DNA of 64,000 nucleotides, taken from contig NZ_CALYQV010000001.1 of the NCBI RefSeq assembly GCF_945290125.1, positions 49,901 through 113,900 on the forward strand, in the 5' to 3' direction. Positions 991 through 18,160 of the stretch are shown in pieces. Origin of the DNA: an uncultured Lactobacillus sp. (lineage in GTDB: Bacteria > Bacillota > Bacilli > Lactobacillales > Lactobacillaceae). Numbering within the stretch: position 1 is the stretch's first letter; each line of letters starts with the position of its first letter. The translations under genes were made by a program, and so were the position numbers. The notes beneath the pieces were generated by a model. The model was not told the DNA's origin. It saw nothing but the letters and a program-made list of their open reading frames with translations, and ran no database searches.

Positions 991-1923
991 ATGGAAAAAG
1001 AATTAGTTTTTGGTCATCAAAATCCAGATACAGATGCCATAGGAACAGCGATTGCATATTCATATTTGCAAAATAAATTAGGTTATGATACAGAAGCAGT
1101 TGCGTTAGGTGAACCTAACGATGAAACAGCTTTTGCCTTAAAGAAATTTGGTTTTGAAGAAGCGCCAAGAGTTATTAAAACAGCTGCTAATGAAGTGAAT
1201 AAGGTAATGCTTGTTGATCATAACGAACCGCAGCAAAGCGTTTCCGATATTGATAAAGTAACTGTAACTCATGTTGTTGACCATCATAGAATTATGAATT
1301 TTAATACAAGTACGCCTCTGTTTTATCTTGCAGAACCTGTAGGTTGTACTAGTACAATTATGTATGGACTGTACAAGCATTTTAAGGTGGAAATTCCCGA
1401 AAATATTGCAGGAATTATGCTCTCTGCAATAATATCAGACACATTATTGTTAAAATCGCCAACTACTACTGAGAGAGATAAAAAGGCTGTTCAGGAACTT
1501 GCAGAAATTGCTAATGTGGATTACCAGAAATATGGTTTGGAAGAACTAAAGGCTGGAACCAATATAGCAAGTAAATCAGAAGAAGAATTAATTGATCTAG
1601 ATGCTAAATCCTTTGATTTAAATGGTAAGAATGTTCGGGTTGCTCAAATCAATGTAGTTGACTTACCAGAGGCTTTGGAACGAAAAGAAACTTTCTTAAA
1701 GACAATGAAAGACTCTGCAAAGTCTGAAGGTTATGATTTATTTATGCTGCTTATAACTAATGTACTTGACTCAGATTCAACTGCATTAGTTATAGGTTCA
1801 GATGAAGCTTTGACTTCATTTGAAAAGGCATTTGGTGAGGTGAAGGATTCTGAAATAAGCTTACCTGGAGTTGTTTCAAGAAAGAAGCAAGTTGTGCCAC
1901 CATTAACTGAAGCTTTTAAGTAA
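991..1923 (+). CDS. ppaC: Manganese-dependent inorganic pyrophosphatase (DHH family)
   Basis: Hydrolyses pyrophosphate to two phosphates in the cytoplasm, pulling biosynthetic reactions forward. It is a family II enzyme: [11 protein letters not shown] near residue 8 supplies the first metal ligands, VDHNE near residue 75 and VDHHR near residue 97 are the DHH motif, and SRKKQ near residue 298 is the substrate-binding C-terminal motif. The length of 310 residues is normal. The start is an ATG preceded by AGGGGAAAG at good spacing. It is a stand-alone gene followed directly by a strong hairpin terminator. All family key residues are present, so activity is expected. Confidence 0.97.
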
Positions 1924-6607: not shown

Positions 6608-7009
6608 TTATTTCTCACTTTTTTGCACTAATTCATTAACAGTATGGTTAAAAGATGCTATCTCTTGCTTACTAAGCCCTTGCAATAAGGATTCTTCAAT
6701 CTCTTTTAATTCACGTCTTAATTGAACGACTTTTTGAAGTCCCGTTTCATTTAACAAAACAGTTTTGCTTGAATCTCTCTCAGATCTTTTAACTGTAATA
6801 AAACTTACTGTTTTTTTCTGTTGTAATTGTCTGCTTAATGTCGATAGCGAAATTTTTAAGTTATCAGCTAAATCTCCCATTTTTAAAGCTGTATTGTCAT
6901 TTTGATCGAAATATAGCAAAATTCTTGTTTGTGAAAGATTTAAGCCACATTTTTTGCTTATTTCGTTTTTAATATTCTCCGCTATTGTGCTAAAAGATAA
7001 AACATTCAT
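6608..7009 (-). CDS. MarR-like winged-helix regulator
   Basis: 133 residues with a winged helix: the SQTRILLYF helix at about residue 26, LKMGDLADNLKISLSTLSRQL as helix-turn-helix at 42-62, and KRSERDSSKTVLLNETG as the wing at 75-95. The C-terminal helix would dimerise. MarR proteins bind palindromes near their own promoter and are released by small ligands or oxidation; the only Cys (residue 21) might be a sensor, which is speculative. Start ATG at 7009 has AAGGTAG upstream. Upstream is a 330-base AT-rich gap shared with the divergent rqcH, containing an 11-bp direct repeat that might be an operator. Confidence 0.85.
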   Translation of the reverse strand: MNVLSFSTIAENIKNEISKKCGLNLSQTRILLYFDQNDNTALKMGDLADNLKISLSTLSRQLQQKKTVSFITVKRSERDSSKTVLLNETGLQKVVQLRRELKEIEESLLQGLSKQEIASFNHTVNELVQKSEK

Positions 7010-7348
7010 TTAACTACCTTTTCTGATAAAAACAAAAATAATTTGTAAGTTAATATTTATACTGTTCACAATTTTTCCAAAAGATAAATTACTTTGTGAA
7101 ACAATAGGGTTACCAGTATAGTGATATTACTTACCATTAATTTTAACTTATAAATATTTATATCAATAACTTTAAATCTATATTACCAGTATATCAGTTT
7201 TTTGCAATAGCTTCTTTAAAAAGTAAATTTATAATTAATATATAACTAGTAGTACTCTTTTTTAAGATTTAATCATAAAATATACCTAAAGCTAATACAA
7301 ATTGCTTAATACTTGATATAATAGTAAGCGTGTTTTGAGGTGATAATT
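7010..7348. promoter_or_regulatory. Divergent intergenic region between marR and rqcH
   Basis: AT-rich, no coding potential seen. TTACCAGTATA occurs twice in direct orientation at 7110-7120 and 7183-7193, spaced close to seven helical turns. The rqcH promoter is likely the extended -10 TTGATATAAT with TATAAT at 7317-7322; a good -35 is not evident. GAGG at 7337-7340 is the rqcH ribosome binding site. Confidence 0.5.
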
Positions 7349-9037
7349 ATGGCTTTTGACGGTTTATTCATACATAGTCTTTTAAATAGTGTTAAGCCAA
7401 AAATAATCAATGGTCGGCTTTCAAAAATTTACCAACCATTTGAACAAGATTTAGTATTAACTTTTAGAAAAGAACGCAAAAATATTCAGTTGTTATTATC
7501 GGCAAATGCGCAATACCCTAGGTTTTACATAACTAACCAAACTATTGCTAATCCTGATAAGGCTCCCACTTTTGTCATGGTACTGCGCAAATATTTGGAA
7601 GGCTCAGTATTGCAATCAATTGAACAACTGGGTGTTGACCGCATTATATATTTTAATTTTAGTAATCGTAATGAGCTGGGAGATCAAGTTCAGTTAGTTT
7701 TATCATTAGAATTAATGGGACGACATAGTAATGTCATACTTTATGATCAAAAAAGTGGCCATATAATTGATCTGCTTAAGCGAATTAATCCAGATGAAAA
7801 CAGGGTGAGACTGCTTTTGCCCAAAGCCAAATATGAATTACCACCTTTAATATCTGGAATAAACGGCTTTGAAGTAACAGAAAAAGAGTTTAAAGAAAAG
7901 GCTATAAATTCGGATCCAGTAGATTTTGCTAGTCAAATTAGTGGCCTGGATCGTGACGATCGCCAAGAGCTCATTGGTTATTTAGAAGATGATTTTTCTT
8001 ATTCATCTTTTAAGACTTTTATGAGTCAATTTAATAAAAAAGGCGCTTTTATATTAAAAACGCCAAATAATAAACGTAAAATTTTTCCCTACCTGCCCTA
8101 CCATCTTAACCTAACAAAAGAAAGTGCTGATCCCGATATCAATCATGCTTTGGATGAGTTTTATGAGTATCAGTCAAATCAAGATTGGGTACGACAAAAG
8201 TCAGCTCAAATTGAGCGGCTAATCAAAAATGAATACAAAAAATTAACCAAAAAAATTGTTAAGCTCAAAAAGCAGCTGGAACAGGCAGAAAATTCTGAAG
8301 GATACAGGATACAAGGAGAAATCCTTAACGCAAATTTATCCCAAGTTAAGCCAGGAATGGCAGAAGTTTCTTTGCCAAATTATTATGATAATAATCGTCC
8401 ACTAAAAATTAAACTTGATGTTGCCCTCTCTCCGGCTCGTAATGCGCAGAAGTATTTCACTAAATATAAAAAACTACGTGATTCTATTAAACACGTTAAA
8501 GAGCAAATAGCTATTGCTCAGGATAATTTAGATTATTTTGATTCTGTTCAGACTGCAATTGATAATGCTGAACCGCAGGATATCGATCAAATTACTGAAG
8601 AGTTAATGAATCAGGGCTATTTAAAGAAACCCCAAAAACCAAAACGAAAAAAGAAAATTACCGAAAAGAATCTGAATAAATTTCGTATATCTTCGGGTAA
8701 AACCGTTTTAGTTGGAAAGAATAATTTACAAAACGACTGGTTAACTTTAAAAAAGGCTAATAAAACTGATATTTGGTTTCATGTTAAAAATATTCCAGGC
8801 TCACACGTGATTTTGCAATCATCTGAAGCAACAGATGAAGACATTTTAGAAACAGCTGAAATTGCTGCATATTTCTCCAAAGCTAAAAATTCTGCTCACG
8901 TACAAGTCGATTATGTTCAAGATAAACGTGTAAAAAAACCAAATGGAGCAAAACCAGGCTTTGTGATTTATACTGGTCAAAATTCAATTGAAGTGACCCC
9001 TGAAAAAACTAGGGTATTATCTAAGAGAATAAATTAA
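7349..9037 (+). CDS. rqcH: Ribosome quality control factor RqcH (NFACT / fibronectin-binding-like)
   Basis: In bacteria RqcH binds split 50S subunits carrying stalled peptidyl-tRNA and adds C-terminal alanine tails that mark the chain for degradation. The NFACT-N domain covers residues 1-215 (MAFDGLFIHSLL; GVDRII near residue 95 matches the Asp-Arg pair needed for tRNA handling). Then come a helix-hairpin-helix-like segment, charged coiled coil at about 280-420, and the NFACT-R domain with KTDIWFHVKNIPGSHVIL near residue 475. Homologues were first called fibronectin-binding protein A. ATG 7349 was chosen over GTG 7340 because GAGG precedes it at normal spacing. Length is typical. Confidence 0.93.
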   Translation: MAFDGLFIHSLLNSVKPKIINGRLSKIYQPFEQDLVLTFRKERKNIQLLLSANAQYPRFYITNQTIANPDKAPTFVMVLRKYLEGSVLQSIEQLGVDRIIYFNFSNRNELGDQVQLVLSLELMGRHSNVILYDQKSGHIIDLLKRINPDENRVRLLLPKAKYELPPLISGINGFEVTEKEFKEKAINSDPVDFASQISGLDRDDRQELIGYLEDDFSYSSFKTFMSQFNKKGAFILKTPNNKRKIFPYLPYHLNLTKESADPDINHALDEFYEYQSNQDWVRQKSAQIERLIKNEYKKLTKKIVKLKKQLEQAENSEGYRIQGEILNANLSQVKPGMAEVSLPNYYDNNRPLKIKLDVALSPARNAQKYFTKYKKLRDSIKHVKEQIAIAQDNLDYFDSVQTAIDNAEPQDIDQITEELMNQGYLKKPQKPKRKKKITEKNLNKFRISSGKTVLVGKNNLQNDWLTLKKANKTDIWFHVKNIPGSHVILQSSEATDEDILETAEIAAYFSKAKNSAHVQVDYVQDKRVKKPNGAKPGFVIYTGQNSIEVTPEKTRVLSKRIN

Positions 9038-9074
9038 AAAAACGAGGATGAAGTAAAAATCATCCTCGTTTTTT
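9037..9074. terminator. Bidirectional terminator between rqcH and carB
   Basis: A-run then ACGAGGATGA (9041-9051 region) pairing with TCATCCTCGT (9060-9069), followed by a T-run; it overlaps the carB stop codon at 9073-9075. It serves the two convergent genes. Confidence 0.92.
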
Positions 9075-12000
9075 AAATCGGCTGAGTAGTTAAAGATAAA
9101 GACTCTAAAACGCTTAAAATAAGTTCAGTAGTTTCGATGCTTGAGAAAACTGGTATGTTTTGATTCAGAGCTTCATCGCGTATCCTGGTTGCATCATCAC
9201 TAGCGGAATCAGATAAATTAGTAATATTTATTACCATATCAATCTTATGTTGGCGAATCTTGTCTAATAAGCTGCAAGAGCCATGACTAATTTTTGACAC
9301 TATTCCAGTTGTAATACCGGCTTCGGCCAATTCATTAGCCGTACCCTCGGTTGCAATTATTTTAAAGCCTAAACGGTAAAATCTCTGAGCCAATTCTGTT
9401 ACTTTTTTCTTATCTTCGTCGCGCACAGATATAAAAATTATTCCATAACTTGGTATTTTTACGCCACTAGCTTCATACCCTTTGTATAAAGCTTTTGCCA
9501 GTTCGGTATCTCTACCCATGACAGAACCAGAAGACTTCATTTTTGAGTCGAACGTATTTTCGCTTTGATAATTAATATAAGAAAAGACCGGCATTTTAAC
9601 AAATATAAAGCTATTTGAACGCCATAATCCACTTTTGTATCCTAATTCAGGCAAAGACTTTCCGATTAAAACTTCTGTCGCACATTTGGTAATATCCTTA
9701 CCAAGAGCCTTGGAAAGAAAAGCGATATTATGGCCAGCATAAGGCTTAATTTGCAATAAATATACTTTCTTATCAACAATTAAGAAATGTAAGGTAAAAA
9801 TACCACGCATATTTATACGTTTAACTAATGCAATAGCAAATTCAGTTAATAATTTCTTGGCCGTTTTAGATAAGTTTTGTGGTTTAAAAACAGCTATTGA
9901 ATCTGACGCATGTGAACCTGTTTGTTCCAAGTGCTCAATAATACCTGGAAGAGTTACATTTTTACCATCTGAAATGGCAGTTATCTCATATTTATTTCCT
10001 TCAATAAAATGAGACAAGCTTACCTTAGAAAGCTGATTTTCTTCTAAATATTTTTTTAAGGCAGGTAAATCATAAACCACAGCCGACTTTTGCTTTACCC
10101 CTAAATTATTAAAGCCACCAATTAAAATTGGAAATCCGTGTTCTTTAATGAACTTTTGGGCTGCACTTTTATTAACAGTCGTTAGTAGTTTGTTTTGACT
10201 TAAATTTTTTACTGGTTTAGTTAATGCCTGCTCTATACGATCTTTAGGATTAACATCCTTGTTACCTAAAATATTCAGACCGTTTTCGATTAATTTCTTA
10301 CATAGAGCATTCATCTCTTTGCCAGAAAATTGGATTAAAACATCTTTGATTTTTTCTTTCTTAGTAATTTGCAGAATACTTTCAACTGTAATTGGTTCAA
10401 AATAAACTTTATCTACTCTCTTGTAGCTGATAGCAACTGACTCATCATTATTTGAAAGTAAAATAATGTCATAATTATTATTATGTAAAGTATCAATTGC
10501 ATGACTTAGCATATAGTCGAATTCACTTGTAACTGAAACTTGTGATGGCAGCATTCCGATTATTAAAACCTTTTTAGAGGTAGTCAAAGCTCGGCTTTCG
10601 TCTTGAACTCCAAACGAGCCATAATATGCTTTAACTAAGGGCTTAATGGTTCCCGCAGTGCCATCAATTTGCTGGTAGGCGGGGTTTAAATGTATTTTTG
10701 CAAGTCTTTTTTCAATTGCACCCACACTTATGTTAGATAAGTTAGCAATTAAAAGATTACGGAAGCCTCTCTTTTTAGCTTCAATTAGTAATTCATCTGA
10801 TAAGTGTTCGTTTACTAATTTATAACCAATTTCCACTATATGATACAGCTTTTGGAAATATACCGGATGAATATGAACAATTTCTTGTAATTCCTGATAA
10901 CTAAAGCCTTTTGCAATTGCAGCTAGTAGTTTAAGTAAATGTAACTCATCTGGTTGTTTTAGATCAGAAAGAATTTCTGATTTATCTTTAGCTTTTTCCG
11001 CTTGAAAAACGGTTAGTGACATTTTTATATTTACTGTTGAAGCCAGACCTTTTAAAAAAGCAGACTCAAAATTTGTACCTAAGCCAATAGCTTCTCCACT
11101 CGCCTGCATTCTGTTGTCTAATTTGTAATGATTACTACCAGATTGGGTTAATGACCAAAATGGCATCCGAATGGCTACTTTGTCCAAAGTTGGTTCGATT
11201 GCCGCATTAAGTCCTGATAACGGATCTTTAATTTCATCTAAACGATAACCAAGTGCAACCTTACAGACAATATAACCTAAACTATATAGTCCTACCCTTT
11301 TAGACCAAATAGCGCTACGCGTTAGTCTTGGCTTTATCGATAAAACTTTGACTGCAAAATTTGTACCTTTATGCTTGACGGCGAAATGTATATTTAAAAT
11401 TCCTACTATTTGCAGACTAGCCGCTATTTTTTGGGCAATTGCTCGAATCCTCTGTACTTGGTCATTGTTAAGGGTCAGGGCGGGCATCACAGCCGCTGAA
11501 TCACCGGCATTTATAGCTACAGACTCAATAGTATCTGCTAGATTAGTAAAAAGCGTATTTCCTGAGCTATCACGAATAATATTAGCAATTACTTCGTCCC
11601 AAGAAGATAAGTCTTCTGCTAAGTGATAATTACCAAACGAAAAATTTTCCAGTCGTTTTTCTTTTTGTAAGTACTCGTTCAGATCAGTAATATTATTAAA
11701 AATAATTTTTTGGTTAAGTGCTGAATCTTTTTGCTTAATAAGCATCACAGGAAAGTGAACGTGCTCTTCCAATTGCATTTGCAAGTTAATTGCATCGAAA
11801 TCAGTTAGATTCCAATATTTGCTTGCCTCAATCAGGTTTTCTGTCAGAAAAGCGTTCATTTTTTGATGATTGTCCATTGCCAATGTGCGTTTATTCAAAG
11901 TTAACAAGCGCACTCCCATTTGTCGCAAAATACCATCTTGAACAAGTTCCCGAGTAACTTTTAAGCCAGTTGTAGAACCATAAGCAGATATAATGGCATC

Positions 12001-12249
12001 CGGTTCTTCCATTCGAATTATTCTTTTGAGAAATTCCAGGGTCATTGGTTCAAGATATACGGTTAAGCCAGGCTTTTTATCAGTAGAAATAGTTGCAGGG
12101 TTAGGATTGACTAAAACTACCTGAATATCCTCTTCAAAAAGTGCTTTAATAGCGTCTTCAACTAATAAATCAGTTTCAGATACCTTACCGACTAAAGTTG
12201 GTCCTGATCCGATGATTAATACTTTATCTAAATCATTATCTAAAGGCAT
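9073..12249 (-). CDS. carB: Carbamoyl-phosphate synthase large-subunit-like protein, catalytic residues lost in both ATP-grasp halves
   Basis: Full-length (1058 residues) with complete CarB architecture: carboxyphosphate half 1-400, oligomerisation domain 400-550, carbamoyl-phosphate half 550-930, MGS-like allosteric domain 930-1058. Conserved framework motifs remain (VNPNPATISTD, DELLIEAKKRGF, ATEGTANEL). The residues that normally bind ATP and Mg do not. In half one the usual EMNPR is SIKPR (304-308), the Arg of VRPS is Ile171, the Gly-rich loop is gone, His of HTGDS is Asn247 and Gln of NVQF is His288. In half two EVNPR is QIKPY (833-837), the Arg is Gly711, Gln is His821 and the NNNPETVSTD loop is rewritten. 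No stop or frameshift is seen. It follows carA by two bases. Probably a pseudoenzyme kept for another role, or a decaying gene. Confidence 0.9.
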   Translation of the reverse strand: MPLDNDLDKVLIIGSGPTLVGKVSETDLLVEDAIKALFEEDIQVVLVNPNPATISTDKKPGLTVYLEPMTLEFLKRIIRMEEPDAIISAYGSTTGLKVTRELVQDGILRQMGVRLLTLNKRTLAMDNHQKMNAFLTENLIEASKYWNLTDFDAINLQMQLEEHVHFPVMLIKQKDSALNQKIIFNNITDLNEYLQKEKRLENFSFGNYHLAEDLSSWDEVIANIIRDSSGNTLFTNLADTIESVAINAGDSAAVMPALTLNNDQVQRIRAIAQKIAASLQIVGILNIHFAVKHKGTNFAVKVLSIKPRLTRSAIWSKRVGLYSLGYIVCKVALGYRLDEIKDPLSGLNAAIEPTLDKVAIRMPFWSLTQSGSNHYKLDNRMQASGEAIGLGTNFESAFLKGLASTVNIKMSLTVFQAEKAKDKSEILSDLKQPDELHLLKLLAAIAKGFSYQELQEIVHIHPVYFQKLYHIVEIGYKLVNEHLSDELLIEAKKRGFRNLLIANLSNISVGAIEKRLAKIHLNPAYQQIDGTAGTIKPLVKAYYGSFGVQDESRALTTSKKVLIIGMLPSQVSVTSEFDYMLSHAIDTLHNNNYDIILLSNNDESVAISYKRVDKVYFEPITVESILQITKKEKIKDVLIQFSGKEMNALCKKLIENGLNILGNKDVNPKDRIEQALTKPVKNLSQNKLLTTVNKSAAQKFIKEHGFPILIGGFNNLGVKQKSAVVYDLPALKKYLEENQLSKVSLSHFIEGNKYEITAISDGKNVTLPGIIEHLEQTGSHASDSIAVFKPQNLSKTAKKLLTEFAIALVKRINMRGIFTLHFLIVDKKVYLLQIKPYAGHNIAFLSKALGKDITKCATEVLIGKSLPELGYKSGLWRSNSFIFVKMPVFSYINYQSENTFDSKMKSSGSVMGRDTELAKALYKGYEASGVKIPSYGIIFISVRDEDKKKVTELAQRFYRLGFKIIATEGTANELAEAGITTGIVSKISHGSCSLLDKIRQHKIDMVINITNLSDSASDDATRIRDEALNQNIPVFSSIETTELILSVLESLSLTTQPI

Positions 12250-12251
12250 AT

Positions 12252-13307
12252 TTACACCATCATCTTTACAAAGTTATCAAAAATAGGAAGAGCATCAAGA
12301 CTTCCTGGAGCTCCTTCAGCATTGAAAGCCGTACCAATTACCTTGTTAGTTTTATTACTATAACCGGCAAGTAATTCACTGTGAAGATCGTAAAATTCTC
12401 TTTCCATTTCGAATTGAACGCTATTTGGTAGAATCAGTTGATCAATATTCATAGCCACTTGCCAAATCTTGTTTGTGTTCTGATCAATAACAGGATAATT
12501 AATGCCACTATATGGTTGTGGTAAGTCGACAAGTTCGAAATTCAAAAAATCGCTTAATGTTAAAAAACCTAAGCCAATTCCCCAAATTGGAATTTGATCA
12601 TAAAATGCTGAAAAAATTGGTTCAAGGTCCGGCATTAATTCATTGGGCTTGCCTGGTCCTCCTGAGATGATAATTCCTTGGGGCCGCAGATTTTCAATAT
12701 CTGGCACAGCAACATTATATGGTAAAACAGTAGCATTAACCTTTCTCAAAGATAATTCTCTAAGCATGGAATGCTTTAAACCAAGATCAATTATAGCTAC
12801 GGTTTTACCTACATTAGGTACCGCATATGCATTCTTAGTGGAAACAGCCGCTGATTTATTTTTGGGTAAAACCAAAGCTTTAATTTGGTCAAAAGCGTGT
12901 TCATCATTTGTGTCCATAATCGAAGCTTTGATTGTCTTCTCCTTATTCAAAAGATGAACTAATGCTCTGATATCGACATTAAAAATTGCTGGTATATTTT
13001 TTTCTTTTAAAAAAGAAGCTAAATCCTGGAAGTTGCCACTTTCGGAAATATTTTGCGCAACATCATTGGCAATTATTCCCTTTACCGTTGGATTAATACT
13101 CTCATAGTCAATTGCATTAATGCCATTGCCACCAATCATTGGTGCAGTAAACACCAGAATTTTGCCCGTATTGGTCGGATCAGTCAGTGCTTCTTGATAA
13201 CCAAAATTACCCGTTTGAATGGCTAACTCACCAGTGGAAATTATTGAGGATCCTAATCCTTCTCCTGGAAATGATTGTCCATTTTCCAGAATCAAATATC
13301 GTTTCAT
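12252..13307 (-). CDS. carA: Carbamoyl-phosphate synthase small-subunit-like protein, glutaminase residues lost
   Basis: 351 residues, normal CarA length. The N-terminal CarA-specific domain is well conserved (TGELAIQTG, FGYQEALTDP, GNGIN, VDIRALV). The C-terminal class I glutamine amidotransferase fold is recognisable (IIDLGLKHSMLREL, GIIISGGPGKPN), but the nucleophile motif GICLGHQ reads GIGLGFL, so the catalytic Cys is Gly245, and the catalytic His of YHPEASPGP is Asn329 in FNAEGAPGS; only the Glu (331) remains. SQNHGY is also absent. It therefore cannot release ammonia from glutamine by the known mechanism. It lies in the order fhs-lspA-rluD-carA-carB with no other pyrimidine or arginine gene nearby. 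Losing activity in both partner subunits suggests co-evolution. Confidence 0.92.
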   Translation of the reverse strand: MKRYLILENGQSFPGEGLGSSIISTGELAIQTGNFGYQEALTDPTNTGKILVFTAPMIGGNGINAIDYESINPTVKGIIANDVAQNISESGNFQDLASFLKEKNIPAIFNVDIRALVHLLNKEKTIKASIMDTNDEHAFDQIKALVLPKNKSAAVSTKNAYAVPNVGKTVAIIDLGLKHSMLRELSLRKVNATVLPYNVAVPDIENLRPQGIIISGGPGKPNELMPDLEPIFSAFYDQIPIWGIGLGFLTLSDFLNFELVDLPQPYSGINYPVIDQNTNKIWQVAMNIDQLILPNSVQFEMEREFYDLHSELLAGYSNKTNKVIGTAFNAEGAPGSLDALPIFDNFVKMMV

Positions 13308-14219
13308 TTAATCACTTTTTTCTCTCAATTCAGTCAGTCTTTGCAAAAAAATCCTTGGAGGTTGTACTTCAAATTCGAGCCATTTACCAGTAGTTGGCTG
13401 TCTGAATCCTAATACTTGAGCATGCAAAAATTGACCATTTTCCTTTAAGGTATGATGCGGTCCGTATAATGGGTCTCCTGCAACAGGATGCCCAATATAA
13501 GCAAGGTGTACCCTGATTTGATGAGTCCGACCCGTTTCAAGACGACATCTGAGTAAACTGTAATTTTGAAATTGTTCAAGAACAGTAAAATGTGTAATAG
13601 CTTCTTTGCCATTTGCTATTACAGCCATTTTTTTACGATTATAATGATCGCGTCCAATTGGAGCTTCTATTGTTCCTTGTTTTTCAGAAAAATTGCCGTG
13701 TACTATTGCTAAATATAGTCTTTTATTAGTTTTTGTGGCCAATTGTTTTTCCAAACTTTCACGTGCAAAAGCATTTTTGGCCACCATTAATAAGCCAGAT
13801 GTATCCTTGTCAATGCGATGGACAATTCCTGGACGAAATCCTTCAGGACTTTTAGCCAGGTTTTTCGTATGAAATAATAATGCATTAACGAGCGTGTGAT
13901 CTGGATGTCCAGCAGCTGGATGTACAACCATACCTTGAGGCTTGTTAACTACTATAACGTCTTGATCTTCATAAACAATGTCTAATGGAATGTCTTCCGG
14001 GATTAATGCCAATGGCTTTAATTTAGGTACAAAAACCGTAATTATGTCATTTTTTTGTACTTTATAGGACGACTTAACTATTTTTTTGTTAACCAAGATA
14101 TTTTGATCCTGGAGCAATTCCTGAATCCGTGAACGTGATAAAGAAGGAATTGCGTTTGCAAGCACTTTGTCTATTCTGCCCTTTTCATTTTGGATAACAA
14201 ACTGATATTTATTCGGCAT
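13308..14219 (-). CDS. rluD: 23S rRNA pseudouridine synthase, RluD family
   Basis: Converts specific uridines in 23S rRNA to pseudouridine. An N-terminal S4-like RNA-binding domain (residues 12-60; RIDKVLANAIP, SRSRIQELL) precedes the RluA/RluD catalytic domain with HRIDKDTSGLLMVAK near residue 133, where the Asp is the nucleophile, and GRTHQIRVHL near residue 225. Length of about 303 residues is usual. ATG 14219 was preferred: it overlaps the end of lspA and gives the normal N-terminus, so translation is probably coupled; an in-frame TTG lies at 14240. lspA followed by an RluD gene is a common arrangement in Firmicutes. Confidence 0.95.
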   Translation of the reverse strand: MPNKYQFVIQNEKGRIDKVLANAIPSLSRSRIQELLQDQNILVNKKIVKSSYKVQKNDIITVFVPKLKPLALIPEDIPLDIVYEDQDVIVVNKPQGMVVHPAAGHPDHTLVNALLFHTKNLAKSPEGFRPGIVHRIDKDTSGLLMVAKNAFARESLEKQLATKTNKRLYLAIVHGNFSEKQGTIEAPIGRDHYNRKKMAVIANGKEAITHFTVLEQFQNYSLLRCRLETGRTHQIRVHLAYIGHPVAGDPLYGPHHTLKENGQFLHAQVLGFRQPTTGKWLEFEVQPPRIFLQRLTELREKSD

Positions 14220-14676
14220 CGTTTTTTTCGCTTTCGTCAAAAAAGAGCAGATAAATAAATACCAATATTATTCCTATTGTAATTGCAGAGTCAGCTATAT
14301 TAAAAATATTGAAGTGAATAAAGTCAACTTGAATCATATCAATAACATACTTTAAGTGAATACGGTCAATTAAATTGCCAATAATTCCGCCTAAAACCAG
14401 TGCCACTCCAGAATCAAAAAGCTTACTATGAAAATTGTTTCGTAACAGGTAATATAAACAAATTACGATAGCAATAATACTAATCAGGTAAAAAAGTACC
14501 ATTTGACCGGGCAAAATATTCCAAGCAGCTCCATCATTTTGGACATAAGTAAATGAAAAAACATGGGGTACAATCTGCTGAGTTTCTCCCAGCTTGTAAT
14601 TACCTGCAATAAAAGATTTCAACCCTTGATCAAGAAGTACAATAAATAATGAAATAATTAAATATAAGAATTGCAT
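14209..14676 (-). CDS. lspA: Lipoprotein signal peptidase (signal peptidase II)
   Basis: Integral membrane aspartyl protease that removes signal peptides from lipidated prolipoproteins. 155 residues with four predicted membrane helices (about 4-22, 58-78, 85-105 and 125-147). The catalytic aspartates are in GGIIGNLIDRI (near residue 110) and FNIADSAI (near residue 133). The start ATG is followed by MQFLYLII, a typical first helix. It overlaps rluD by 11 bases and follows fhs by 10 bases, so the five genes probably form one transcript. Confidence 0.96.
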   Translation of the reverse strand: MQFLYLIISLFIVLLDQGLKSFIAGNYKLGETQQIVPHVFSFTYVQNDGAAWNILPGQMVLFYLISIIAIVICLYYLLRNNFHSKLFDSGVALVLGGIIGNLIDRIHLKYVIDMIQVDFIHFNIFNIADSAITIGIILVFIYLLFFDESEKNDAE

Positions 14677-14685
14677 CGATACTTT

Positions 14686-16362
14686 TTAAAATAAGCCACT
14701 AATTTTACCATTATTGTCGACGTCAATATCTAATGCAGCTGGATGTTTAGGTAATCCTGGCATATCTAAAACATGTCCGGTTGTGATAACAATAAACCCG
14801 GCTCCATTTTTCAAACTAGCGCCCTTTACGTGCAAAGTAAAATCAGTTGGTGCTCCTAATAGTTTTTGATTATCAGTAAATGAATACTGTGTCTTGGCAA
14901 TAATGACTGGTAGCCTATCCTTCCCCATTTTCTCAAGTTCATGAATATCATTTTCAGCTTTTTCAGTATATTCGACTTTAGCTGCATGATAAATTTTTTG
15001 TGCTATTTTAGCAATTTTAGTTTTTACGTCATCATCTTTTTGATAAGTAGGTACTAGCTTGCCTTCACCTGAATTTGCTAAATCAAGGACAGCTTTAGCA
15101 GCTTCTATTCCGCCCTTTGAGCCCTGCTCATGATAGTCAACAACAACAGAATCAATTCCTTCTTCTTTAATCAATTGCTGTAAAAGTAAGAGTTCATTTT
15201 CACTGTCAGTTGCAAAATGATTAATTAAAACGATCACAGGAATGCCGTAGTTACGCATATTATTCATATGTCTCTTAAGATTTGCAAAACCGCTACGTAA
15301 AGCAGACAGATTTTCTTTACTTAAGTTTTCAGTGGTACCTTCTGCTTGATATTTTAAGGCACGTACAGTTGCCACGACCACGCTAGCATCAGGCTTTTTA
15401 TCCAAATGTTCAGATACAAAGTCCATGAATTTTTGACCACCTAAGTCGCTGCCGAATCCTGCTTCAGTTAAAACATAATCACTTAAATGCAATGCTAAAT
15501 TAGTTGCCATAACGGTATTGGCGCCATGGGCAATATTGGCAAAAGGTCCACCGTGTACAAGAGCTGGTGTATGTTCAATTGTTTGAACTAGATTTGGCTT
15601 TAAAGCATTTGAAAGCAAAGCTGCAATTGCACCCTCAAATCCCAAATCTTTAACGTAAATAGGCTTATCATCTTTAGTGTAGCCCACGAGCATTAAACCA
15701 ATTCTCTTTTTTAAATCGTTAATGTCGGTAGCCAAACACAAAATTGCCATTAGTTCATTGGCAACCGTAATTGCAAAACTGGACTTGTGTTCAACCCCGT
15801 TGAATTTTGAACCTTGTCCTACAGTGATATTTCTTAAACTACGATCGTTTACGTCAATTCCCCGTTTCAATAGAATTCTGTCAGGATTTAGCCCAAGTTC
15901 ATTTCCCTGATAAATGTAGTTGTCTACTAAGGCTGCCAAAGTGTCAATAGCAGCTGTCAAGGCATGCATATCTCCCGTAAAATGAAGATTAATGTCTTCC
16001 ATTGGAATAACCTGAGCCTGACCTCCACCAGTAGCTCCGCCTTTTAAGCCAAAAACTGGGCCCATTGAAGGTTCGCGTAAAGCAATCATCGTTTTCTGGT
16101 GTAACTGATTGTTAATGGCATCTCCCAGACCAATAGTCATTGTTGATTTACCTTCTCCAGCTGGAGTAGGAGAAATTGAAGTAACCAAAATCAATTTACC
16201 AAGGTGTTTGTTCGCCAATGTCTTTTTGATTGCCTGCCAATTGATCTTGGCTTTATCATTGCCATATGGCTCAATATCTGAGCTGCTTAAACCAATTTTA
16301 GCAGCAATTTCGTTAATGGGTAATGCGTGTGCTTCTTGTGCAATTTGAATATCTGATTTCAT
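14686..16362 (-). CDS. fhs: Formate--tetrahydrofolate ligase
   Basis: Makes 10-formyl-tetrahydrofolate from formate, THF and ATP for purine and formyl-Met-tRNA synthesis. 558 residues, the family's usual length. The P-loop TPAGEGKST is near residue 66; [18 protein letters not shown], the folate/nucleotide region, follows near residue 97, and [10 protein letters not shown] near residue 302 is another signature. It heads the fhs-lspA-rluD-carA-carB group; a 224-base AT-rich leader upstream, without an obvious riboswitch, separates it from the small membrane-protein gene. The start is ATG with GAAAGAGG upstream. Confidence 0.97.
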
Positions 16363-16586
16363 TGCGCATGCCTCTTTCTGTATATAAAATTTAATAATAA
16401 TTTTTCATCTTAAATAATATCCTTTTCATATTAGAATTTAGGTCCCACCTTTTATTTAATCAATTGTCATTATAACAAACATTAAGCAATTTTTATGCAT
16501 AACCTGTTATAAATTATGAATAAAGCTAAATTTTCTTTTATAACTAAAAATTTAGACTTTGCCAAAATTATTCTATTTTGACTATT

Positions 16587-16919
16587 TTATTTTTCAAATC
16601 TTAACAAATAATAGTGACCAAATTCGTCCAATTTAATTTCATAAATTTTAAGAAAATGCCATTGCAGCAAAACTGTTGGCTCAGATGACATTTTGGTCTT
16701 AGGACGAAATGGGAGTTTTAATATGCTCGTATTCCAGTATGAATTAAAATAAGTATAGAGCAATAAAATAAGGAAAAATAAAGAACAAATAAGTGCTGGC
16801 CAATTAAAAGCTTTGGTGCTTTCATATAAAAATATCAGACTCAAGAAAAATACAATAAATATCCAGCAAAAATAAATTAATCCACTACGACCTAAAATAA
16901 TAAAATGCTTTTTTTTCAT
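16587..16919 (-). CDS. Small membrane protein of unknown function
   Basis: 110 residues from the ATG at 16919, chosen because AGGA lies 8 bases upstream; an earlier in-frame start would overlap the previous gene. Two adjacent hydrophobic helices at about residues 8-28 and 35-58 are followed by a polar 50-residue tail (KLPFRPKTKMSSEPTV) ending in LLRFEK, probably cytoplasmic. No family is recognised. It directly follows the phosphoesterase gene by 11 bases and is probably co-transcribed with it, and is followed by a gap before fhs. Confidence 0.75.
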   Translation of the reverse strand: MKKKHFIILGRSGLIYFCWIFIVFFLSLIFLYESTKAFNWPALICSLFFLILLLYTYFNSYWNTSILKLPFRPKTKMSSEPTVLLQWHFLKIYEIKLDEFGHYYLLRFEK

Positions 16920-16930
16920 AAAAATTCCTG

Positions 16931-18160
16931 TTAATACCAAATTTTTGCATTAAGGTTACTGTGATTAGAAGTATCGAACAAAGTTTTCATATAATCGCTA
17001 AATCGTGGCCTCTGACTAACTAAGATTTTAAATTCTTTAGAGGAGTACAAATTTTCTAGTTGCTTTTTTTCGATATGATTATGTCCCGTAAAATATTGAT
17101 AATTCATTTCAATAAACAGACGGTTTACCTTTTCTAAAAATTTAGATTGTTCATCGTTTAAGTGATCTTTTTTATTTGAATTACCAGTTAAATTTCTTAT
17201 TTGAATGTTCTTTAAGTAACTGTGAAAGTGAACCAGATTCGAATCTAGCCGTTCTTTTTTAGTTAAAAAAGGTTTCATATCAAATGTATGTCGCTGATAT
17301 TCAATGTGATCCGTTCTTACTTTGACTATTCCATATCCTTGGTCGTATGAACAAAAACTTGAAGTAACAATTTCTGTAGTGGGTGTTTTTGCCTGTGGCT
17401 CGACGATATTTTGAGCATGAATGTGGCCGGAAAAAGCAATTTTAACCTTATAATCCTGGCATAAACGACATAATGTTTGAGCATTATTTAAAACAAAGCC
17501 GCGATTTACAGCTGGATTATGAACATAAAGATTATGGTGCATAAACAAAAGGGGTTTAAGGTGCTTCATCCTAGCACTTTCTAACTGCTTTTCTATCCAG
17601 ACAATTTGTTCTTCGTTTATTTGCCCTTCAGTAGAGGGAGCACCACTAGCTTCATGTTCACTATAAATATTGGAATCAAGTAATAGTAATAGGTATTCTT
17701 TATTTAATTGTACGCTGTATGCCAATGAATTGGGATCAATACTTTGCGCACAATCATATGAACATTTAAAAATTTCTTGCCAATCAGTGGGACTAATTTG
17801 ATGGGCATAAAGCTGATTTGGACCTTGAAAAGCCCTGGCCCAGCCATCATATATGTCATGGTTTCCGGGTAAAACCAATAATTTAGTTTCATTTAAATTA
17901 CGAAAAATTTCTGCAAATTTTTGTGCCGAAATAAGCTCACCGTTAAAAGTAACATCCCCAGTAACAATGATAGCAGACGGCTTTTTTTTATTAGCCAAAT
18001 CAGTAAAAGCCCTTAAAGCTATTTCTTGATAAACCAGGTCTTTACCTTGACTGGTATTTTGAATACGTTGAAAAGCTTGACCATCATCATGCAAGCTATC
18101 TGCAATTAAATGCGTATCTGTAATCACCCAAAATTTGGTATTTGCTTTATTTGTAATCAT
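16931..18160 (-). CDS. Calcineurin-like metallophosphoesterase
   Basis: 409 residues with the complete set of metallophosphoesterase motifs: DTHL near residue 15, VTGDVTFNGE near 64, LPGNHDIYDGW near 96, MHHNLY near 206 and SGHIHAQN near 244. These coordinate two metals for phosphoester hydrolysis, often of cyclic nucleotides or nucleoside polyphosphates. The last 130 residues form a helical, charged C-terminal extension seen in a lactobacillar subfamily. No signal peptide, so it is cytoplasmic. It overlaps rlmL by 14 bases. The substrate is unknown. Confidence 0.9.
   Translation of the reverse strand: MITNKANTKFWVITDTHLIADSLHDDGQAFQRIQNTSQGKDLVYQEIALRAFTDLANKKKPSAIIVTGDVTFNGELISAQKFAEIFRNLNETKLLVLPGNHDIYDGWARAFQGPNQLYAHQISPTDWQEIFKCSYDCAQSIDPNSLAYSVQLNKEYLLLLLDSNIYSEHEASGAPSTEGQINEEQIVWIEKQLESARMKHLKPLLFMHHNLYVHNPAVNRGFVLNNAQTLCRLCQDYKVKIAFSGHIHAQNIVEPQAKTPTTEIVTSSFCSYDQGYGIVKVRTDHIEYQRHTFDMKPFLTKKERLDSNLVHFHSYLKNIQIRNLTGNSNKKDHLNDEQSKFLEKVNRLFIEMNYQYFTGHNHIEKKQLENLYSSKEFKILVSQRPRFSDYMKTLFDTSNHSNLNAKIWY

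Follow-up and report, generated by a model that had tools for sequence, protein, structure and literature searches.

A probable carbamoyl-phosphate synthetase pseudoenzyme maintained at an old pyr operon site in Lactobacillus

The window analysed here, a 64,000-nucleotide stretch of the genome of an uncultured Lactobacillus (contig NZ_CALYQV010000001.1), carries on its reverse strand two adjacent genes, carA and carB, coding for the small and large subunits of a carbamoyl-phosphate synthetase (CPSase)-like complex. Comparison with related sequences indicates that this divergent, dead-type pair is very probably an ancient CPSase pseudoenzyme that selection has maintained. In what follows G stands for a genome, L for a locus, g for a genus and f for a family, and the window lies in G000. 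The pair and its altered sites are listed below, with E. coli numbering for the residues replaced and counts out of 61 aligned divergent copies.

9073..12249, reverse strand: divergent carB, large CPSase-like subunit; open reading frame (ORF) of 1058 aa with Pfam CPSase_L_D1, D2, D3 and MGS; both ATP-grasp sites changed
12252..13307, reverse strand: divergent carA, small CPSase-like subunit; ORF of 351 aa with Pfam CPSase_sm_chain and GATase; glutaminase Cys and His lost
12573..12575, reverse strand: CarA Gly245 codon, replacing the catalytic Cys269; Gly in 61/61
12321..12323, reverse strand: CarA Asn329 codon, replacing the catalytic His353; Asn in 61/61
11326..11340, reverse strand: CarB SIKPR (304-308), replacing EMNPR of ATP-grasp site 1; E299 and N301 lost, R303 kept in 60/61
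9739..9753, reverse strand: CarB QIKPY (833-837), replacing EVNPR of ATP-grasp site 2; Q and K in 61/61, Y in 59/61
9076..9459, reverse strand: CarB MGS-like domain, aa 931-1058 (Pfam MGS 950-1035); nucleotide-site residues kept

Both reading frames run uninterrupted from start to stop at normal length and retain the complete CPSase domain architecture according to Pfam, at 30% (CarA) and 26% (CarB) identity to E. coli. An earlier note on this DNA had taken the pair for an intact but catalytically dead complex, and alignment with E. coli bore out every replacement it had named (Gly245, Asn329, SIKPR and QIKPY). In CarA the Glu of the glutaminase triad is kept (Glu331, E355 in E. coli). In CarB, site 1 additionally shows R129H, R169I, Q285H, E299S and N301K, with R303 and E215 kept, and site 2 shows R715G, D753S, E761K, Q829H, E841Q, N843K and R845Y. 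The window proteins missed the cut-offs of the family models TIGR01368 (CarA, 239.7 bits against 307.35) and TIGR01369 (CarB, 641.3 bits against 1027) and passed the looser ones of NF009475 and NF003671. Structure prediction suggests that the CPSase fold is kept, and structure comparison matched CPSases, carboxylases, PurK/PurT-type and other ATP-grasp chains. The DNA is that of a bee-gut Lactobacillus; its nearest named relative is L. melliventris (CarB 96% identical), a member of the Firm-5 group that lives in the bee gut.

The replacements are shared well beyond this strain. Our alignment combined E. coli, 32 comparison copies and 61 divergent ones, of which 58 represent Lactobacillus genomes (out of the 74 that gave a match) and three come from genomes of the genera g28 and g40; since one comparison copy, L106, proved to be dead itself, the live controls number 31. 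In CarA, C269G, H353N and Q273L were found in 61/61 divergent copies, with the Glu of the triad kept, and the H312 position was occupied by I, L or V in every one. In site 2 of CarB, R715G, D753S, E761K, E841Q, N843K, R848H and T849N were likewise found in 61/61, Q829H in 60 and R845Y in 59. The comparison copies had the E. coli residue at CarA C269 and H353 and at the nine switched site-2 positions in 31 or all 32 cases, the exception being L106. In site 1 of the divergent copies R129, R169, G175, G176 and E299 were lost and variable, and E215 (60/61), R303 (60/61) and Q285H (59/61) were nearly fixed. Furthermore, the MGS residues K954, T974, T977, K993 and N1015, which we take to form the nucleotide site in E. 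coli numbering, were conserved in 60/60 ungapped copies of the 61. The new residues of CarA and of site 2 are fixed and do not reflect drift.

Mean entropies, calculated over site positions taken from work on E. coli, were 1.17 bits for site 1, 0.55 for site 2 and 0.10 for the MGS nucleotide site in the divergent copies, against 1.24 overall; the values for the 31 live copies were 0.15, 0.19, 0.31 and 0.82, respectively. In a set of 49 copies, invariant columns made up 25% of the MGS domain, 22% of the second ATP-grasp domain, 12% of the first and 2% of the oligomerisation domain. The MGS domain is thus the best-conserved part of the divergent CarB and in Lactobacillus, as far as the alignments tell, selection protects this regulatory domain along with the second half of the protein.

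A divergent CarB was found in 74 of 75 Lactobacillus genomes, at 48-100% identity to that of the window, and the only genome with no match (G045) is 59% complete. The copies in 71 genomes span at least residues 1-1057 of 1058 free of stops, and those of G039 and G062 are partial. The ratio of nonsynonymous to synonymous substitution rates (dN/dS) was computed with our own Nei-Gojobori script for eight Firm-5 pairs. Five pairs at dS 0.28-0.59 gave 0.027-0.038 (carA) and 0.052-0.082 (carB). The two closest pairs, at dS 0.03-0.08, gave 0.041-0.082 for carA, and in the most distant pair carA was saturated and carB gave 0.047. The live carA and carB genes of two pairs were at 0.02-0.05. For the neighbouring genes the values were 0.068 (rluD), 0.075 (lspA), 0.036 (fbpA) and 0.032 (fhs) in the pair L005/L010, all at dS above 1, and 0.30, 0.14, 0.025 and 0.054, in the same order, in the close pair L005/L006. 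The MGS part had the lowest dN/dS in five of the six computable pairs. The divergent carA and carB of Lactobacillus are under strong purifying selection and are not decaying neutrally. The earlier note had allowed for a recent pseudogene, marked by canonical close relatives with premature stops in this strain or by a dN/dS near 1; neither was found: the pair is present in 74/75 genomes and is under strong purifying selection. A recent, strain-specific pseudogene is ruled out by this spread, the fixed new residues and the low dN/dS.

Most Lactobacillus genomes also carry a live-type CPSase. A second full-length CarB, 29-32% identical to that of the window, was found in 51/75 genomes, and PyrB scored above its cut-off in 52/75; fifteen second copies (L077-L091) had the common live residues at the CarB positions checked and at CarA C269, Q273, H312 and H353. 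In G008 there are stops in the second carB and in pyrB, and the divergent copy is whole. G000 has one CPSase small-chain gene. The search for a canonical second carAB that the earlier note had proposed detected no second CarB in the G000 assembly; further searches of G000 found no PyrB above cut-off, no PyrR at 1e-15 and no PyrP at 1e-60, and the 13.5 kb around the pyr operon of a sister genome gave only three weak matches. Because a live-type pyr operon (L077) is present in that sister, G065, and the assembly of G000 reaches 94% completeness, the absence of a live CPSase from G000 is likely, not certain. The strain is probably auxotrophic for pyrimidines, provided that the assembly is correct.

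The surroundings of the pair point to its origin. The neighbouring genes in the window are:

13308..14240, reverse strand: RluD-type pseudouridine synthase (TIGR00005, Pfam), directly upstream; carA starts immediately after the rluD stop
14209..14676, reverse strand: lspA, signal peptidase II (TIGR00077 above cut-off)
14686..16362, reverse strand: fhs, formate-tetrahydrofolate ligase (NF010030 above cut-off)
7340..9037, forward strand: fbpA/RqcH-type NFACT protein (Pfam NFACT_N), convergent; marks the native pyr site on its right

Wider flanks were read for 27 Lactobacillus loci: lspA-rluD is upstream of the divergent carA in all of them, carA directly follows rluD in 25 (an extra ORF intervenes in L061 and L063) and the convergent fbpA lies downstream in 26, the exception being the stretch L066. 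The same fbpA bounds the live pyr operons of g12, g13, g26 (two), g32 and g34 (L104, L112, L097, L143, L136 and L102), and fhs-lspA-rluD-pyrR-pyrP stands upstream in 7/7 live operons examined, namely those six and L101. Because fhs-lspA-rluD and fbpA flank live pyr operons elsewhere, the divergent pair is the remnant of a pyr operon at its own site. In this regard, the earlier note was wrong to argue that the non-pyr neighbours strengthen the case for a new role. Two loci have an intermediate layout, rluD-pyrR-pyrP-carA-carB in L095 and rluD-pyrP-carA-carB in L094, both with divergent carAB, with PyrR and uracil permease assigned by separate matches; an Rfam PyrR element precedes the first gene of each series. 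This element (RF00515) was above threshold in L094, L095, L106 (dead) and L105 (live) and did not reach it in the other four of the eight sources and in 11/11 further loci; positions 7000-17000 of the window gave no RF00515 and two sub-threshold matches to other Rfam families. PyrR attenuation as a shared control was rejected, as the element occurs in only a few loci and not in the window.

Inserted ORFs surround the dead pair in some loci: a 619-aa ORF separates rluD from carA in L061, and there is one of 402 aa in antisense in L063 and one of 447 aa after carB in L063, L065 and L067. They leave carA and carB unharmed.

Dead copies also occur outside Lactobacillus. Loci outside the genus were chosen partly for a low-scoring or first-half-only CarB match, so proportions among the fetched loci are not frequencies. 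Dead carAB was found at the native site in 8/8 genomes of g15 (four of them lacking another CarB at 1e-150), in 3/3 of g22 and in one genome each of g18 and g11. In g34 one genome (G107) has dead carAB at the site, and the other seven have a CarB 74-75% identical to a live query. A short form of CarB (818-901 aa) was found in 20/20 loci of 16 genera that had been chosen for a first-half-only match (L171-L190); there all 20 CarA have C269G and carry F or S in place of His353, the site-1 residues of CarB are mostly lost and pyrR lies directly upstream in 18/20. L159-L161 and L196 resemble this form, CarB is even shorter in g4, g9, g36 and g10 and it is broken by a stop in g23. Of the 40 Lactobacillaceae genera sampled, mostly through one genome each, 33 had a dead CarA at the site (Cys or His lost in any locus read); in the other seven a live operon occupies the site (g12, g13, g26, g32) or the site was not read (g30, g31, g39).

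Dead pairs were found in other families as well. In three genomes of g49 (family f2; L132, L166 and L167) dead carAB lies inside a largely kept pyr operon with pyrR, pyrC and three further pyr genes, and with pyrB only in L132; no other full-length CarB match was found in these three at the cut-off used, and a fourth g49 genome had no CarB match. In g43 (family f4; L197, L198, L199) a CarA lacking the Cys, one of which keeps His and Glu, lies beside a first-half CarB of 577-579 aa; this pair follows pyrR and, in two of the three loci, pyrB. Among 182 CarA sequences from the fetched loci, E. coli included and some genomes counted twice, 124 lack the Cys and all have Gly there, 57 keep the triad and one (L133) keeps Cys with His and Glu lost. 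In g22 (L128, L153, L154) CarA and site 2 are dead and site 1 has the full live residue string; judging by these residues, such complexes might still hydrolyse ATP with bicarbonate. All in all, the reading of the earlier note stood in part: the pair is intact, retained, dead by its residues and under selection; the neighbour argument fell, and the genus-wide spread, the second, live carAB and the dead copies across the family had been missed.

Catalysis was likely lost more than once, as far as the trees can tell; we claim no number in view of the long branches. The CarB tree, which came with long-branch warnings, gives the Lactobacillus clade a very long stem and separates it from the canonical copies. 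The CarA trees place the Lactobacillus group inside the family, joined with g22 (86/91), L133 of g34 as sister to a live g34 copy (100/93) and g49, of another family, apart. A single origin of the main dead family groups was not rejected (approximately unbiased test, AU, p 0.23) and was marginally rejected once L133 was added (p 0.043).

Loss of the catalytic residues, maintenance by selection and a fold that is predicted to be kept together make it very probable that the pair is a pseudoenzyme. Its CarA and CarB presumably still form a complex, and their residues imply that it makes no carbamoyl phosphate. We take the pair to descend from the CPSase of the ancestral pyr operon and to have kept its native place once the other pyr genes had gone from it. 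The conserved MGS domain may bind a nucleotide or phosphoribosyl pyrophosphate (PRPP); the CPSases of Gram-positive bacteria usually respond to uridine monophosphate (UMP) and PRPP. A signal could then travel from this domain via the rebuilt second ATP-grasp half to a partner, so that the complex would act as a nucleotide-status sensor or scaffold, with CarA and the first half of CarB mainly structural. Nucleotide sensing through the MGS domain fits the conservation pattern, and a nucleotide-responsive role in Lactobacillus is the leading reading, though it falls a little short of an even chance. Taken as a whole, the proposal of a maintained pseudoenzyme at an old pyr site that serves as a nucleotide-responsive regulatory scaffold has, in our view, about an even chance of being correct.

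Several observations weigh against this proposal. Conservation of the MGS site residues by itself does not show binding, and both the dead-enzyme and the sensor interpretations are drawn from sequence. The short dead forms of other genera have no MGS domain, and the dead CarB of g15 and g22 has lost some MGS residues. One carB among the 75 genomes, in G016 (L206), has a frame break near residue 953, possibly an assembly error, and in the two closest pairs carB reached a dN/dS of 0.13-0.16 on very few changes. MGS sensing as a shared function of all dead copies was rejected because of the short forms and the MGS losses in g15 and g22. PyrR, PyrP or a live CPSase as an obligatory partner in Lactobacillus was also rejected, since they were not found in some genomes with the divergent pair: searches of G038, G043 and G074 found no PyrR, PyrP, PyrB above cut-off or second CarB.

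The rebuilt second ATP-grasp site could instead run another chemistry, with the MGS domain still regulating it. The nine switched and fixed residues and the 22% of invariant columns resemble a working pocket rather than a relic, but the metal ligands Q829, E841 and N843 have become H, Q and K, the phosphate-binding R715 has become Gly, no recognisable ATP-grasp chemistry is left and a candidate substrate is lacking, so that we consider a new enzyme unlikely.

Bicarbonate is a CPSase substrate, and where pyrR adjoins dead carAB the pair could sense the bicarbonate or pyrimidine state through PyrR. The arrangement in 18 of the 20 short-type loci is suggestive of such a link, and pyrR also lies directly upstream of dead carA in g15, g22, g11 and g40. 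In L. plantarum PyrR2 is stated to act on inorganic carbon (PMC3582564), and pyrR2 is listed as lp_1782 (PMC7911632). The g38 genomes appear, from their gene content, to be Lactiplantibacillus-like, and their native-locus PyrR is 63-64% identical to the operon PyrR; by place and identity the native-site gene would be pyrR2. Against this, Lactobacillus keeps the pair in six genomes with no PyrR match (G022, G036, G038, G043, G044, G074) and the short type has mostly lost its site-1 residues, which leaves a PyrR2-linked inorganic-carbon sensor rather improbable.

A further possibility is that the pair serves the live CPSase, or other pyr enzymes, as a regulatory or assembly subunit, much as pseudo-subunits known from the pathway do. 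Both forms coexist in most Lactobacillus genomes and g49 has its dead carAB within a pyr operon, but the pair is intact even in G038, G043 and G074, where no live CPSase or PyrB was found, and we judge this role distinctly improbable. A CPSase still working with unusual residues is barely credible: the cut-offs of PRK05294 and PRK12838 are passed and the predicted fold is kept, but replacements affect the nucleophile, the His, the metal ligands and the phosphate-loop Arg across all centres, the TIGR01368 and TIGR01369 cut-offs are missed and most relatives have a separate live-type copy. Lastly, a decaying, functionless pseudogene is refuted for Lactobacillus, as the one frame break in 75 genomes and the broken dead carB of g23 stand against a pair that is present in all but one genome, end to end in 71, with dN/dS far below 1 and its new residues fixed.

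The maintained-pseudoenzyme proposal can be set beside known systems. The window pair shares with E. coli CarA-CarB (PDB 1jdb, 1ce8) the two subunits, domain order, predicted fold and MGS nucleotide-site residues and differs from it in the lost triad and both lost ATP-grasp sites, at the low identities given above. Human CPS1, which makes carbamoyl phosphate from ammonia, keeps both synthetase sites live, unlike the divergent CarB. Pathway pseudoenzymes are a known kind: PyrC' of Pseudomonas aspartate transcarbamoylase and the pseudo-dihydroorotase of fungal Ura2 are non-catalytic relatives of enzymes of the same pathway. However, these are dihydroorotase relatives in complexes with live enzymes, whereas in the present case the entire CPSase heteromer is dead and is kept even where no live partner was found. 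Its retention genus-wide and widely in the family is new as far as we have seen; a literature search, made mostly without subscription papers, found none describing the pair as dead. The numbering pyrAa1/Ab1 of the L. plantarum operon hints that its authors knew of a second pair. With L. plantarum PyrR2 and its two CPSases the common point is that dead short carAB lies beside the native-locus pyrR in g38, but the two CPSases described in PMC3582564 and PMC7911632 are live.

A two-gene, 4.2-kb complex that lacks any catalytic centre, yet is commoner in its genus than the live-type copy (74 against 51 of 75 genomes), is a clean natural case for the non-catalytic jobs of an enzyme. Annotation and metabolic models may credit lactobacilli with a carbamoyl-phosphate synthesis that they lack, because the dead CarB of L106 (G084) passes TIGR01369 (1327.6 bits), as its dead CarA passes TIGR01368 (448.1 bits), and the window pair passes NF003671 and NF009475. 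Should the PyrR2 link prove true, molecular tests of how lactobacilli respond to CO2 would become possible. A further-reaching reading, which we think unlikely, makes dead CarAB at the old pyr site a regulatory device widespread among lactic acid bacteria and reached in more than one lineage through loss of catalysis. Live CarAB would then have had a second, non-catalytic job that outlasts the need for catalysis, and with the neighbouring PyrR2 dead CarAB would form the inorganic-carbon/pyrimidine sensor still missing for L. plantarum and its relatives.

Two further observations were made among the fetched loci. L176 has a tetrahydrofolate (THF) riboswitch above threshold (1203-1303, minus strand) on the same strand as the pyr-site genes. 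In g44 (family f5; L131, L168) the flanking ORFs contain no CarA and CarB is E. coli-like at all 16 catalytic positions checked, so this CarB is possibly an ammonia-using CPSase.

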